Source: Mammaliicoccus vitulinus (GTDB lineage Bacteria > Bacillota > Bacilli > Staphylococcales > Staphylococcaceae). Taken from it: 64,000 nt of DNA. Each line of letters opens with the position of its first letter. Positions within the stretch are counted from its first letter, which is position 1. The notes under the pieces were generated by a model that made no database searches, was not told the origin of the DNA, and saw nothing but the letters and a program-made list of their open reading frames with translations. The stretch lies in NCBI RefSeq assembly GCF_029024305.1, contig NZ_CP118974.1, positions 2,077,069 through 2,141,068 on the forward strand, read 5' to 3'. The translations under genes were made by a program, and so were the position numbers. Positions 5,304-54,016 of the stretch are shown one piece after another.

Positions 5304-5401
5304 AGTTCATAAACGAAGTTTAAATCCAATACTTTATCAACTTTTCTTAATAAATTTTCATCTATATTAAAAAATATTTTGGTAATATTCGGTATTTTTT
5401 T

Positions 5402-5476
5402 AGCGCTGACTCCTGCGGGAACAGCATGATTCGAAGACTACAGGCTGAGAACATGCCCGCGGAAAGCATGGCATAA
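5402..5476. repeat. Divergent copy of the GC-rich palindromic intergenic element
   Basis: GC-rich stretch in an AT-rich gap with the layout GCGCTGAC, GCGGGAA, then GACTACAGGCT, then CATGCCCGCGG and AAGCATGGC. It matches the order of motifs in the three longer copies near 13.75, 23.04 and 53.35 kb (GTGCTGACGCCC, GACTACAGGCTCGA, AAGCATGC), but its flanking CGATTTTGT ends are missing. No coding potential seen; the rest of 5304-5531 holds nothing I can assign. Confidence 0.6.
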
Positions 5477-5531
5477 AAAAATATATGTGTTCAACGTACT
5501 ATACAATAATAATCAGACTTTCATTTATACC

Positions 5532-13621: not shown

Positions 13622-13745
13622 AGGGTTCACCTCTAGGTTAATATATGTTAATTCTAATGAACTTTAACCATAACTGCAATCATTATAAATATTAGATCGA
13701 TATCTTTAAAATATAAAAGAAGTTGGGATTTTTTATAAAACCATG

Positions 13746-13840
13746 CGATTTTGTTCGTGCATGCTTGCCTAGGGTATGATTCGAGCCTGTAGTCGCGCGC
13801 GGCATACTTTTCCCCCGGGCGTCAGCACTTCACAAAATCG
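13746..13840. repeat. GC-rich palindromic intergenic element, copy B
   Basis: About 95 bp with ends CGATTTTGT and ACAAAATCG (9-bp perfect inverted repeat). The interior is GC-rich and self-complementary: GTGCATGCTTGCC against GGGCGTCAGCAC, with CGAGCCTGTAGTC in the middle. Same family and orientation as the copy at 53.35 kb, opposite to that at 23.04 kb. Non-coding. Confidence 0.85.
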
Positions 13841-13897
13841 TGAGGAATATTCATTTTACTTATATTTTTTTCATTTGTTCTTTTAAGAACATGATAA

Positions 13898-14216
13898 ATG
13901 TTGCAAGACTAACCAAACAAGCAACATAGAACGTCCGAATGTTGCAAGACTACCTAAACAAGCAACATAGAACGTCTGTATGTTGCAAGACTGACTAAAC
14001 AAGCAACATAGAACGCCTCTATGTTGCAAGACTAACCAAACAAGCAACATAGAACGCCTCTATGTTGCAAGACTGATCAAACTAGCGACATAGAACGTCC
14101 GAATGTTGCAAGACTACCTAAACAAGCAACATAGAACGTCCGAATGTTGCAAGACTGACCAAACTAGCGACATAGAACGTCTGTATGTTGCAAGACTTAC
14201 TAAACAAGCTACATTC
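13898..14216. repeat. Tandem array of eight 41-bp hairpin units
   Basis: Units begin at 13898, 13939, 13980, 14021, 14062, 14103, 14144 and 14185, exactly 41 bp apart; the last is degenerate at its end. Each has ATGTTGC and GCAACAT as a 7-bp inverted pair around AAGACTNNCNAAACAA, then AGAACGYC. Units 5 and 7 read GCGACAT, which still pairs as RNA through one G-U. Preceded by TGTTCTTTTAAGAACA. Single copies occur at about 22.95 and 53.29 kb. The 13.63-14.36 kb gap holds only this array, the palindromic element, the terminator and the boundary motif. Confidence 0.92.
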
Positions 14217-14282
14217 AGACCCCGACCTCTCTCACCAACCTTATCCAATTACAAAATCGTTACAAATATCTAATTTCATATA

Positions 14283-14328
14283 AAAAAGAGCAGAAATTCA
14301 ATTTTAAAAATGAATTTCTGCTCTTTTT
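14283..14328 (-). terminator. Terminator after the SHOCT-like gene
   Basis: AAAAAGAGCAGAAATTCA and TGAATTTCTGCTCTTTTT form an 18-bp perfect stem around a 10-base loop. Nearly the same sequence recurs as the 46-bp palindrome at 36.9 kb. Followed at 14337-14353 by AGGACATTTATGTCCC, a short palindromic motif also found beside other terminators here. Confidence 0.88.
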
Positions 14329-14364
14329 AAGTTTTCAGGACATTTATGTCCCAACCTCAATTAA

Positions 14365-22794: not shown

Positions 22795-22950
22795 ATGTAA
22801 CACCCCATTCATTATATTATCAAGTATATTTTATCATGATATTCAGAATTTCGACATCCTTTTGTGCGAAAATTCACAAAATAAATTGTGTCTATTTATA
22901 TATAAAGAAAAAGGTTTGGGACATAAATTCCAACTTAAAATATACAGACG

Positions 22951-22996
22951 TTCTATGTTGCTTGTTTAGTCAGTCTTGCAACATTTATCATGTTCT
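22951..22996. repeat. Single 41-bp hairpin unit, inverted, with conserved linker
   Basis: On the minus strand this reads ATGTTGCAAGACTGACTA then AACAAGCAACATAGAACGTC, one unit of the 13.9-kb array, preceded by the same TGTTCTTTTAAGAACATG linker that joins array and palindromic element at 13.84-13.90 kb. The whole block 22950-23137 is thus an inverted copy of about 13746-13938. Confidence 0.88.
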
Positions 22997-23038
22997 TAAA
23001 AGAACAAATGAAAAAATATTATAGAAATGAATATCCTC

Positions 23039-23137
23039 CACGATTTTGTAAAGTGCTGACGCCCGGGGGAATAGTATGCGTGAGAGACTACAGGCTCGAA
23101 CCATACCCCCAGGCAAGCATGCACGAACAAAATCGTG
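23039..23137. repeat. GC-rich palindromic intergenic element, copy C (11-bp inverted ends)
   Basis: 99 bp with perfect ends CACGATTTTGT and ACAAAATCGTG. The GC-rich interior is GTGCTGACGCCCGGGGG, GACTACAGGCTCGAA, CCCCCAGGCAAGCATGCAC, so it can fold into one long hairpin. No transposase-like ORF and no obvious target duplication seen. Orientation is opposite to copies B and D. Confidence 0.88.
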
Positions 23138-23150
23138 AGATTTTAAAATA

Positions 23151-23199
23151 AAAAAGATTTCTTCACTAGGCTTAACTAATGAAGAAATCTTTTATTTTG
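23151..23199 (-). terminator. prfB terminator
   Basis: AAAGATTTCTTCACTAG and its near complement CTAATGAAGAAATCTTT form a long stem. The same hairpin plus its downstream TATTTTGAGAATGG sequence recurs, inverted, at 53.2 kb, so this terminator is itself a dispersed repeat. Confidence 0.82.
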
Positions 23200-23235
23200 A
23201 GAATGGTTCTTTATGTCGCAGACTCCATTTTTTTA

Positions 23236-24346
23236 TTATTTTTCATCTATCTGACTTCTTAAGTATGCATCTATAAATGGTTCGATATGCCCATCCATCA
23301 CTGCATTCGTGTTACCTGTTTCTTCATTGGTTCTATGGTCTTTAACCATAGCATATGGGTGAAATACATAAGAACGTATTTGGCTTCCCCATCCAATTTC
23401 TTTTTGCTCGCCTCTAATTTCATCAAGCGCTGCTGCTTGTTCTTCAAGCTCTTTTTGATATAGTTTAGCTTTCAACATTTTCATCGCTTGTTCTCTGTTT
23501 TTAATTTGAGATCTTTCATTTTGACAAGTTACGACAATTCCTGTTGGTTGATGTGTAATACGTACAGCTGAATCAGTCGTGTTAACGTGCTGTCCACCTG
23601 CTCCTGAAGCTCTATACGTATCAACTGTAATATCTTCAGAATTAACTTCGATTTCAATTTTATCATTATCAAATTCAGGTGTAACATCACATGAAACGAA
23701 AGAAGTATGCCTTCTGCCAGATGAATCAAATGGAGATATGCGCACTAATCTATGAACACCTTTTTCAGCTTTTAGATAACCATAAGCATTATGTCCTTTA
23801 ACTAGAATCGTAACACTCTTAATTCCAGCTTCATCACCAGATTGATAATCTAACGTTTCAACTTTGAATCCTTTTTGTTCAGCGAAACGTTGATACATTC
23901 GAAGTAACATAGATCCCCAATCTTGTGATTCAGTTCCACCTGCTCCTGGATGTAACTCTAAAATAGCATTGTTTTCATCGTGTTCTCCATTAAGCAATAA
24001 CTTCAACTCAAATTGATCAATATCGCTTTGGAGTGTTTTTAAATCTTGCTCCAAACTTTCATGCATATCTTCATCATACTCTTCTTGAAGAAGTTCAACA
24101 GTAGTTAGTAAATCGTCAGTTTGATGCGCTAATTTATGAAAATCTCCCACTACTGATTTTAAAGCGTTATTTTTATTAATAATATCTTGCGCTTTATTTT
24201 GGTCATCCCAAAAGCTTGGATCAACCATCATCTCTTCATATTCTTGAATGTTAGTCTCTTTGTTTTCTAAGTCAAAGAGACCCCCTGATATTCATTAATT
24301 TCTCATTATTTTTATTTAATGTTTGTCTAATTTCAGTTAATTCCAT
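23236..24346 (-). CDS. prfB: Peptide chain release factor 2, with programmed +1 frameshift
   Basis: Recognises UGA and UAA stop codons and triggers peptide release. Translation starts at ATG 24346 after AAGGAG. Codon 25 is TGA (24274-24272) in the context AGGGGGTCTCTTTGAC: a Shine-Dalgarno-like AGGGGG, slippery CTT, then TGA-C, the classic RF2 autoregulatory shift. After the +1 shift the frame stays open to 23236, giving 369 aa in total. SPF (stop-codon recognition) and GAGGQHVN (GGQ catalytic loop) are present. It lies 12 bases after the secA stop, so secA-prfB are co-transcribed. Confidence 0.97.
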
Positions 24347-36884: not shown

Positions 36885-36916
36885 AAATAATCCGAGACAT
36901 CAATGTCTTAGAAATT

Positions 36917-36963
36917 AAAAAAGAGCAGAAATTCATTTGTACAAATGAATTTCTGCTCTTTTT
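36917..36963. terminator. 46-bp perfect palindrome acting as bidirectional terminator
   Basis: AAAAAGAGCAGAAATTCATT...AATGAATTTCTGCTCTTTTT is a continuous perfect palindrome with T-runs on both strands. It separates convergent pepT and glxK. Almost the same arms occur at 14283-14328. Confidence 0.9.
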
Positions 36964-36979
36964 AATATCTGTTCGTTAT

Positions 36980-42640: not shown

Positions 42641-43441
42641 TTACATCGCTAACGTTTTTATTTCATCTGCTTCAATGTATTCATTATCAAAATAAACGCA
42701 TATACGTTGACCATTAATTTCTTCTATTTTAATATCTAAATCATAAATATCACTCAATACTGGTTCATTGATAACCTCATTTTTAAGGCCTGCTATTTCT
42801 ACTTTACCTTCTTTAATCGCAATAATTTTATCCGAGTAACAAGATGCAAAATTAATATCGTGTATCACAATCACAATCGTTTTGTTCATTTCTTTAACAA
42901 GTCTTCTTAAAATTTTCATAATTTGTACAGAATGTTTCATGTCTAAATTATTTAATGGTTCGTCTAATAATATATAATCTGTATCTTGAGCGATTGTCAT
43001 CGCAATATATGCTCTTTGTTTTTGCCCACCAGATAACTCACCTAAATATTTATTTTGAATGTTCGTTAATCCTAAATATTCTAATGCTTTATCAATCATG
43101 ATATGGTCTTCTTTTTTTAATTTACCTTTTGAATAAGGAAATCTACCAAAACTCACGAGTTGTCTTACAGAAATCTTAAGTTCTGTATGGTTCGTTTGTT
43201 TTAAAATAGAGAGCTTTTTAGCAAGTTCATTACTTTTCATTGAAGAGATATCTTGGTTATCTATTTTAATATTACCTTCATCTGTTTCAATCAATCGGCT
43301 AACCATAGCTAAAACCGTACTTTTCCCAGCACCATTCGGTCCAATAAAAGAAGTGATTTTACCTTTTTCAATTTCTATATCAACGTCATCAACGACTTTG
43401 CTCTGATGATAAGCTTTTGTTAAACCTTGAACTTTAATCAT
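42641..43441 (-). CDS. sstC: Siderophore ABC transporter ATPase SstC
   Basis: 266 aa. Walker A GPNGAGKS (34-41), signature LSGGQKQR (about 135-142), Walker B YILLDEP and the H-loop VIHDINFAS. Belongs to the FecE type ATPases of iron-siderophore importers. Its start overlaps the sstB stop by four bases, so translation is coupled. It powers the SstA-SstB channel in the membrane. Confidence 0.93.
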   Translation of the reverse strand: MIKVQGLTKAYHQSKVVDDVDIEIEKGKITSFIGPNGAGKSTVLAMVSRLIETDEGNIKIDNQDISSMKSNELAKKLSILKQTNHTELKISVRQLVSFGRFPYSKGKLKKEDHIMIDKALEYLGLTNIQNKYLGELSGGQKQRAYIAMTIAQDTDYILLDEPLNNLDMKHSVQIMKILRRLVKEMNKTIVIVIHDINFASCYSDKIIAIKEGKVEIAGLKNEVINEPVLSDIYDLDIKIEEINGQRICVYFDNEYIEADEIKTLAM

Positions 43442-45906: not shown

Positions 45907-46051
45907 GAGTAAAATCCACCTTTCATGCTATTACACTCATTATAAACAATAAATCCATTTTAAATTCAATAAATAATGAAAAATATGTTAACTTTTTAAT
46001 GCCTATCAATTATAAAAGATCATTTAAGACGAAGTGTGCAAACAATATAGT

Positions 46052-46096
46052 AAAAAGAGCGTAAACTCTTATTTTCGAAGAATTTACGCTCTTTTA
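46052..46096 (-). terminator. nrdF terminator
   Basis: AAAAGAGCGTAAA and TTTACGCTCTTTT, 13-bp stem, followed at 46107-46122 by AGGATGTTAATGTCCT. The same pair of motifs recurs at 53.52-53.59 kb. Confidence 0.82.
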
Positions 46097-46127
46097 TATT
46101 AATTTAGGATGTTAATGTCCTAAACTT

Positions 46128-47099
46128 TTATTTTTCATCAAAGACGAAGTCGTCATCTGTAAGTGATTCTACATTTAATGCTATTACGTAACCGTCACCT
46201 TTAACACTGAAGAAGTCATGGTTCTTAGTGCTTGTATTTAAAGCATTCTCTATAATCGGGTTGAATGCTTTTTCTTCATAGTAAGGTTCGAATCCTAAGT
46301 TTGCTAATGCTTTGTTAGCATTATATGTTACATAGTTCATTACGTCATTCGTTAATCCTATTTCATCGTACAACATTTTAGTATATTCGTATTCGTTTTT
46401 ATATAGTAAATCAAGCATACGATACATTTCTCTATCAGCTTTAATTTGTTCGTCTTGTGAAAGTTCATTTTTCAGACTTTGTGCATCTAATCCTGTAAAT
46501 ACACCATGAATCGATTCATCTAATAATATTTTACGAATAATTTCACCTGAAGTTGTCATACGACCTTGTCCAGCTAAATATAAAGGATAATAGAAGCCTG
46601 AGTAGAATAAGAATGTTTCTAAGAACACACTTGATACTCTAGCCATATATTGATCATATACAGAAGCCTCTTTAGTCCACAGTTTATGGTAGTTTCCTAC
46701 AATTATATCTGATTTGTATTTTAGATGTGGTTCTTCTACAACCCATGTATCTAATAGTTCGTTTGTTTCGCTAGATGGTAACAATGTTGTGAATATATGA
46801 GAATAACTTTTCGCATGTACTTGTTCCATCATACCCATAAATGAATACACAGCTTTTTTACGTAAATCGCTCGTGTGCATCATTATTAGTGGCATTCCAT
46901 CATCTGCTTGATGTGTATCTAAACCTGTAAGTCCTGCCAATGCTTTTTTAAATGCATTTTTTTCAGGTTCTGTAAGTGTTTCCCAACTTGCTATATCTTT
47001 AGATACTTTAAATTCTGATTCAACCCACATTTGTGAGATGTTTTGACGCCAGAACATATTTGTCATATCTTCTTGTGTATTCCAATTTACTGCCTTCAT
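46128..47099 (-). CDS. nrdF: Ribonucleotide reductase class Ib, beta subunit
   Basis: 323 aa. Carries the metal-tyrosyl radical cofactor for NrdE. Metal ligands appear in LAGLTGLDTHQADDG, MMEQVHAKSYSHIF (Glu and His ligands) and EIIRKILLDESIHGVF; the radical Tyr is in the VHAKSYS helix context. NrdF uses a dimanganese or diiron site activated by NrdI. It is 27 bases after nrdE and closes the nrdIEF operon. Confidence 0.96.
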   Translation of the reverse strand: MKAVNWNTQEDMTNMFWRQNISQMWVESEFKVSKDIASWETLTEPEKNAFKKALAGLTGLDTHQADDGMPLIMMHTSDLRKKAVYSFMGMMEQVHAKSYSHIFTTLLPSSETNELLDTWVVEEPHLKYKSDIIVGNYHKLWTKEASVYDQYMARVSSVFLETFLFYSGFYYPLYLAGQGRMTTSGEIIRKILLDESIHGVFTGLDAQSLKNELSQDEQIKADREMYRMLDLLYKNEYEYTKMLYDEIGLTNDVMNYVTYNANKALANLGFEPYYEEKAFNPIIENALNTSTKNHDFFSVKGDGYVIALNVESLTDDDFVFDEK

Positions 47100-53168: not shown

Positions 53169-53180
53169 AATTTATCAAGA

Positions 53181-53199
53181 GACTGGGACATAAATATCC
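53181..53199. repeat. Left boundary motif of the 53-kb intergenic repeat block
   Basis: GACTGGGACATAAATATCC. Its inverted partner GGATGTTAATGTCCCAGTC is at 53575-53593 (17 of 19 positions match). Related GGGACATAAAT motifs are at 22.92 and 14.34 kb. Confidence 0.75.
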
Positions 53200-53202
53200 A
53201 TT

Positions 53203-53254
53203 CTCAAAATAGAAAATCTCTTCATTAGGTAAGCCTAGTGAAGAGATTTTTTAT
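53203..53254 (+). terminator. Terminator after POT transporter 1 (repeat-family hairpin)
   Basis: AAAATCTCTTCATTAGG and CCTAGTGAAGAGATTTT form a 17-bp stem with one mismatch, then TTTT. Inverted near-copy of the prfB terminator at 23.15 kb. Confidence 0.82.
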
Positions 53255-53262
53255 ATTTTAAT

Positions 53263-53366
53263 ATCTTACGATTTTGAAAGTGCATGCTGTATGTTGCAAG
53301 ACTTACCAAACAAGCAACATAGAACGCCCGTATGTTTTAAAATCTTACGATTTTGAAAGTGCATGC
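53263..53366. repeat. 25-bp direct repeats flanking a single 41-bp hairpin unit
   Basis: The same 25 bases, starting ATCTTACGATTTTG and ending GTGCATGC, occur at 53263-53287 and 53342-53366. Between them lies one 41-bp unit (ATGTTGCAAGACTTACC ... GCAACATAGAACGCCCG). The left end of the palindromic element has therefore been duplicated around the unit. Confidence 0.85.
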
Positions 53367-53444
53367 TTGCCTGGGGGTATGGCTCGAGCCTGTAGTCTCT
53401 CACTCATACTATTCCCCCGGGCGTCAGCACTTTGCAAAATCGTG
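53347..53444. repeat. GC-rich palindromic intergenic element, copy D
   Basis: About 98 bp. Ends ACGATTTTGAAAGTGC and GCACTTTGCAAAATCGT are inverted repeats differing by one inserted base. The interior TGCCTGGGGGTATG pairs with CATACTATTCCCCCGGGC around CGAGCCTGTAGTC. Same orientation as copy B. Confidence 0.87.
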
Positions 53445-53517
53445 GAGAATATTATAGTGAAATTAGTTAAAATCTAAAGTACATAAATTGGTTTAGCTTT
53501 AATGGCTACCAATATAA

Positions 53518-53566
53518 GAAAAAGAGCGTAAATTCCTATTTATTCAAGAATTTACGCTCTTTCTTG
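53518..53566. terminator. Repeat-family terminator hairpin with right boundary motif
   Basis: AAAAAGAGCGTAAATTC and GAATTTACGCTCTTT form a 15-bp stem, nearly the nrdF terminator. Followed at 53575-53593 by GGATGTTAATGTCCCAGTC. Confidence 0.72.
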
Positions 53567-53627
53567 TTAATCTAGGATGTTAATGTCCCAGTCATCTTTT
53601 TGCTATTTATCATGTGGATCCTGACTT

Positions 53628-53822
53628 GATAAATTCACGGATAAATCGCACCAAGACTCAAACAATATTGTGCGTTTTTGGTAAATTTTGGATAAAACGC
53701 ACGAAGACTCAGAAGATATTGTGCGTTTCTGATAAATTCACGGGTAAAACGCACGAAGACTCAGAAGATATTGTGCGTTTCTGATAAATTCACGGGTAAA
53801 ACGCACGAAGACTCAGAAGACT
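53628..53822. repeat. Tandem array of 52-bp hairpin units (about 3.8 copies)
   Basis: Units start near 53628, 53680, 53731 and 53783. The last full copies read GATAAATTCACGGGTAAAAC then GCACGAAGACTCAGAAGATA then TTGTGCGTTTCT. Each contains AAACGCAC and GTGCGTTT as an 8-bp inverted pair. Earlier copies are more diverged. The remaining sequence to 54016 is AT-rich and holds the promoter region of the second transporter. Confidence 0.9.
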
Positions 53823-54016
53823 GAAAATGTTTCACAAGAAAACATACGCATTATAAAAAGTGATTCTGTATGTTACTTTCCTTTTTAATATAATTTTTTT
53901 TGATTATTCAAAATTTTAGAACTTATTAAAATTTTATTGAATTTTATAATTTATAGAGTTAAAATGTTCTTTAAACTTACCTAATTGGGTGGAGTTTAGA
54001 AAGGAAGCGATTTTTT

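Follow-up and report, generated by a model that had tools for sequence, protein, structure and literature searches.

The island at positions 22918-23219, between prfB and the cytochrome c-551 gene (cccB) of Mammaliicoccus vitulinus, is very probably a non-autonomous, MITE-like member of an IS1182 lineage that inserted into the terminator downstream of prfB. Positions are those of the window, i.e., the whole stretch of 64,000 nucleotides that was analyzed, and the autonomous member of the lineage is an insertion sequence referred to here as IS-A. Sequence comparison demonstrates that the island belongs to an IS-A-related family, that it is absent from relatives, and that hairpins are targeted by IS-A and by a second insertion sequence, IS-B.

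Layout of the island and its inverted homologue

The island is intergenic and 302 bp long. Both neighboring genes are on the minus strand, with the stop of prfB at 23236 and the start of the cytochrome c-551-like gene at 22812. Seen from prfB, the island consists of an inverted repeat, a terminator-like hairpin, a long palindrome (P), an AT-rich linker, a single 41-bp unit, and the opposite inverted repeat (Table 1). It contains no transposase gene, only short open reading frames of up to about 60 aa, and the host flanks on its two sides pair imperfectly with each other. Searching the window against Rfam at the gathering score returned tRNA as the sole match, with no known RNA family at the islands.

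Table 1. Components of the prfB-cccB island and related elements elsewhere in the window.
Feature	Position	Strand	Remarks
Host flank AAAGAAAAAGGTTT	22904..22917	.	A-rich side; presumed host terminator stem (sequence)
Terminal inverted repeat, cccB side, GGGACATAAAT	22918..22928	+	11/11 identical to the left terminal inverted repeat of IS-A
Single 41-bp unit	22944..22984	-	30-bp imperfect palindrome ATGTTGC..GCAACAT plus 11 bp
AT-rich linker, unit to palindrome	22985..23038	-	Conserved with 13.85-13.9 kb and other array-bearing islands
Palindrome P, apical loop AGACTACAGGCT	23039..23137	+	99-nt hairpin; also upstream of the IS-A transposase
Terminator-like hairpin AAAGATTTCTTCA..TGAAGAAATCTTT	23153..23193	.	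A/T runs on its flanks (sequence and folding)
Terminal inverted repeat, prfB side, CTTTATGTCGC	23209..23219	-	Homology to the left end of IS-A extends as far as P
Host flank AGACTCCATTTTTTT	23220..23234	.	Opposite side; presumed host terminator stem (sequence)
Sister island	13729..14352	-	P, linker, eight 41-bp units, terminator hairpin, terminal inverted repeat
Third island	53185..53600 (full extent 53180-53600)	+	Left and right ends of IS-A enclosing one 41-bp unit and P; without transposase
IS-A right-end relic	46034..46130	.	Terminator hairpin plus GGATGTTAATGTCC; score 112 vs. shuffle maximum 29
Palindrome Q, IS-B left-end relic	5395..5485	+	Matches IS-B query positions 632-777 and 854-906

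The initial annotation described this sequence as an inverted copy of the island at 13.9 kb, in which the linker, 41-bp unit, and palindrome had been copied together. This inverted homology is confirmed and greatly exceeds chance: 22939-23152 matches 13729-13943 on the opposite strand with 87% identity over 214 bp (E = 5.7e-68), the repeat pieces within this match measuring 83 nt (92%), 69 nt (87%), and 46 nt (85%). The palindrome, linker, and 41-bp unit all fall within one match, so the similarity is not that of a palindromic core alone, and the joint copying of the modules is supported. The two do not form a pair of original and inverted copy, however, but are two among about 100 islands of one family. 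The single unit noted here is confirmed, against eight at 13.9 kb. The number of units does vary, from 0 to 10 A-type units per island (with their polarity relative to P mostly one way), but neither expansion nor contraction can be assigned to this particular pair; the 41-bp arrays have presumably both expanded and contracted after insertion.

Two inverted blocks with 87% identity could also arise if a segment of the chromosome had been duplicated in inverted orientation between 13.9 and 23 kb, without mobile elements. This is extremely unlikely, as the block at 22.9 kb has many better matches elsewhere (84-91% identity, E down to 1.5e-90), about 100 islands are dispersed over the genome, and the neighboring genes are not duplicated. 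Apart from this pair, the terminator hairpins at 14278-14350 and 36896-36968 are near-identical (86%, inverted) and bear GGGACATAAAT-like arms; hairpins of this type are dispersed repeats themselves.

IS-A, its ends, and the conserved palindrome

IS-A was found through an identical long open reading frame adjoining several copies of P. It is an insertion sequence of ~1.93 kb, present in five copies (98.6-99.3% identical) in the M. vitulinus genome. Its transposase matches the IS1182-family model NF033551 (409 bits for a cut-off of 270), as well as DDE_Tnp_1. The element starts with GGGACATAAAT... and finishes with ...ATGTCCC, and GGGACATAAAT / ATTTATGTCCC constitute its terminal inverted repeats. 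P and a terminator hairpin separate its left end from the start of the transposase, and the slot of the terminator-like hairpin of the prfB-cccB island is occupied in IS-A by a different hairpin. IS-A is also found in genome G006, again carrying P. The inverted end motifs previously reported for the island do exist, and are the terminal inverted repeats of this IS1182-family lineage. In the window, exact GGGACATAAAT occurs at three sites only (14.34, 22.92, and 53.19 kb), each of them at an island.

Alignment of the prfB-side island end to the IS-A left end, up to P, gives a score of 59, for a shuffle maximum of 28. On the cccB side, the similarity to the IS-A left end is confined to the 11-bp inverted repeat, with a marginal score (27, shuffle maximum 25); against the IS-A right end, the score is 18 (shuffle maximum 26). 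The third island at 53 kb, which had been missed by the initial annotation together with right-end relics at 46.0 and 53.5 kb and the spread of the family over the whole genome, matches IS-A at both its left (40 vs. 26 for the shuffle maximum) and right ends (110 vs. 31). Given these end alignments of the 22.9-, 53-, and 46-kb sequences, the islands are best read as non-autonomous IS-A relatives. No 41-bp array was seen inside the autonomous copies. The third island is adjoined, at 53627-53842, by a 52-bp tandem array (AAACGCACGAAGACTC..GTGCGTTT), of a type which also borders P elsewhere in the genome, at several loci.

The palindrome P folds into a stable hairpin (minimum free energy -41.9 kcal/mol, z = -6.5). 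Among 19 homologues, taken from Mammaliicoccus and one other genus of the bacterial family (presumably Staphylococcus, judging by how large it is in the sample), nine of the 15 base pairs show changes on both sides, and the covariation score reaches 0.437, compared with 0.192 for shuffled alignments (0/500) and less than 0.08 when the pairing is slid. The apical AGACTACAGGCT is nearly invariant. A palindrome related to P, named Q, precedes the transposase of IS-B, a second IS1182-type insertion sequence (459 aa) present in genomes G004 and G006. Q-like sequences were found in 53 of 108 genomes of the bacterial family, in two of its five genera, and at one locus of the second genus such a sequence lies directly before an IS-B-like transposase. 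As P and Q occur in IS1182-type elements across genera, the fold can be considered as conserved as part of these elements, and P is probably a hairpin needed by, or regulating, IS1182-type transposition.

P could otherwise belong to a family of REP-like palindromes, mobilized by a RAYT or by an IS200/IS605 (Y1, HUH) transposase, with the rest of the island being an accretion. P is indeed a dispersed extragenic palindrome containing a GTAG tetranucleotide, and an association with Y1 transposases is common among REPs (PMC3733652). This origin is nevertheless very unlikely: P and Q sit within the left ends of two IS1182-type elements, the GTAG is placed in the apical loop of P and not at the hairpin foot, and the Y1 transposase (PF01797) is absent from six of the seven relatives and from the M. 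vitulinus genome itself, which thus lacks the cognate transposase of a REP/RAYT system.

Genomic distribution and insertion into terminator hairpins

Among named genomes, that of Mammaliicoccus fleurettii DSM 13212 comes closest by protein identity (91%). In the 2.65-Mb genome, the 24-nt core of P (up to three mismatches) has at least 117 matches and the 30-bp palindrome of the 41-bp unit at least 277, whereas the reversed patterns have none. With islands delimited as single stretches around matches, the 119 P or P-like matches listed correspond to about 101 islands. Nearly all of them are located at gene 3' ends: the neighbors of 100 islands form 55 convergent, 43 codirectional, and 2 divergent pairs, compared with 2, 24, and 4, respectively, for the intergenic gaps longer than 60 bp in the window. 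With up to two mismatches allowed, the GGGACATAAAT motif occurs on the left side of 42 and on the right side of 45 islands out of 100, whereas the reversed motif does so at 3 and 1, respectively. In more than half of the islands, the two end motifs are not both clear. Among the matches listed, there are also arrays of the 41-bp unit lacking the P core, with up to ~14 units, at 270.5k, 331.6k, 343.9k, 790.3k, 1909.0k, and 2063.3k of G000:C1.

The strong 3'-end bias, the internal terminator hairpins, and a hairpin with compensatory changes conserved over two genera could be taken as signs of terminator or insulator cassettes that are maintained by the host and selected at gene 3' ends, P being an RNA or protein-binding element. 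Such a host function is unlikely to explain the islands, because orthologous sites lack them in seven species, which argues against a conserved need, and because the palindrome may be conserved as a part of mobile elements.

The orthologous empty sites, which the initial annotation had suggested searching for, are present: the prfB-cccB gap is island-free in seven other Mammaliicoccus genomes, and most of these gaps hold a short hairpin of their own (e.g., GAGGCTGAGACAATTAAATTGTCCCAGCCTC in G001). At further intergenic places of the window, relatives have a plain terminator in some cases and, in others, an island of a different kind that is specific to the species; for example, the place of the sister island is occupied by plain short terminators in G004 and G005. 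As the genomes with empty sites belong to other species, loss instead of gain is possible at each site. For the set of islands, insertion into a stem is supported by the flanks: across 30 islands, the bases just beyond the motifs pair more with the opposite flank of the same island than with a shuffled one (z = 3.6 at 10 nt; 4/5000 shuffles). This test was based on fixed-length best motif matches with a reversed-motif control, a strict motif filter keeping only 15 islands. The empty sites of IS-A itself are terminator hairpins (e.g., AAAAAAAGAGACTAGGCTTTCCTAGTCTCTTTTTTT in G003), and at one IS-A site of the M. vitulinus genome, the stem base AAAAAAGAGG...CCTCTTTTTTT is retained around the element.

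IS-B targets the same kind of structure. On the two sides of each of its three full copies (L220, L225, and L221, in G006 and G004), an entire terminator hairpin is directly repeated without a mismatch (34, 36, and 34 bp). The L221 site, filled in G004, contains a single hairpin in G003, G006, G007, and M. vitulinus, and the flanks of IS-B in G004 overlap by 34-35 bp on single-hairpin sites. The hairpin copies at its flanks, combined with the single-hairpin empty sites, indicate that the complete stem-loop is duplicated when IS-B inserts. In the M. vitulinus genome, eight islands have Q and P at opposite ends, and look like IS-B derivatives. A direct duplication of the host terminator (23-56 bp) was detected by script at five of these eight, and by eye at a sixth (479 kb); none was found at the two others, at 410 and 668 kb.

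On the basis of these comparisons, the prfB-cccB island would have kept the left end of IS-A, with its terminal inverted repeat, internal terminator hairpin, and subterminal P, while the transposase gene would have been replaced by the AT-rich linker and one 41-bp unit, the far end retaining the inverted repeat alone. The IS-A transposase may act in trans on the inverted repeats of the island. By analogy with what is reported for IS1272, it may attack the cruciform or hairpin that a terminator forms, which would thereby be replaced or split. The terminator hairpin carried inside the element would then keep the upstream gene terminated, which may make the insertion tolerable.

Stem-loop duplication could also be the engine of the arrays themselves. 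In sampled stretches of four related Mammaliicoccus genomes, all 17 tandem arrays found (periods of 20-60 bp were sought) have a period of 39-41 bp; many of their unit sequences are unrelated to each other, and most contain an imperfect palindrome. An insertion would double a 34-36 bp hairpin, an imprecise excision would leave two hairpins plus a few bases, and repeated rounds would build arrays of hairpin units with a near-fixed period, irrespective of sequence; P and Q would be hairpins that the transposase recognizes as folded DNA. This extension of the IS1182-type mechanism to the arrays is speculative and rather unlikely.

Relation to known systems and implications

The kind of system is known, since IS1272, of the IS1182 family, already targets terminator hairpins. 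According to the available accounts (PMC5678879, PMC4923244), it inserts into terminator stem-loops, removes part of them, and produces no short target site duplication. IS1272 and TnSha1 of staphylococci share with IS-A an IS1182-family transposase, a length of ~1.93 kb, and insertion into terminator stem-loops, but short array-bearing derivatives and a subterminal P do not appear in those accounts, as far as they are available. The duplication of a whole stem-loop, as performed by IS-B, is drawn by Wan et al. (2017) as a possible pathway only.

Other dispersed repeats resemble the islands in architecture. The pneumococcal BOX elements (boxA-boxB(n)-boxC) are dispersed intergenic composites with a variable tandem middle and folding ends; in this comparison of architectures, their modules appear to be of other sequence, and they have no link to IS1182-type elements or terminator loops (PMC3049150). 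In Porphyromonas gingivalis, BrickBuilt and MITE464/PgRS are MITEs with tandem arrays, the PgRS units even being 41 nt long, but these belong to another phylum and have IS5-type inverted repeats, and terminator targeting is not described for them (PMC4596501). The STAR elements of Staphylococcus aureus are dispersed intergenic direct repeats with a locus-specific copy number, for which neither a palindrome P nor insertion sequence ends are described (PMC3532100). Their 14-bp motif TDTGTTGKGGCCCM occurs in the window at chance level, with one two-mismatch match at 43015, outside the islands, for a chance mean of 1.14; identity with STAR was thus rejected. A literature search returned no paper on IS1182-derived MITEs at the level of titles and the beginnings of abstracts, which does not establish their absence. 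The features that seem novel are the array-bearing MITEs, the palindrome that the elements share, and the clean duplication of stem-loops.

The origin and spread of small dispersed staphylococcal repeats, such as STAR, are not known (PMC3532100). Since the repeats of the present family are connected with a named transposase family, a target (terminator hairpins), and empty sites, their spread can be tested. The IS-B insertions are clean natural cases in which a DDE-type insertion sequence has duplicated an entire palindromic target of 34-36 bp, and the islands may explain why terminators differ at orthologous places between Mammaliicoccus species.
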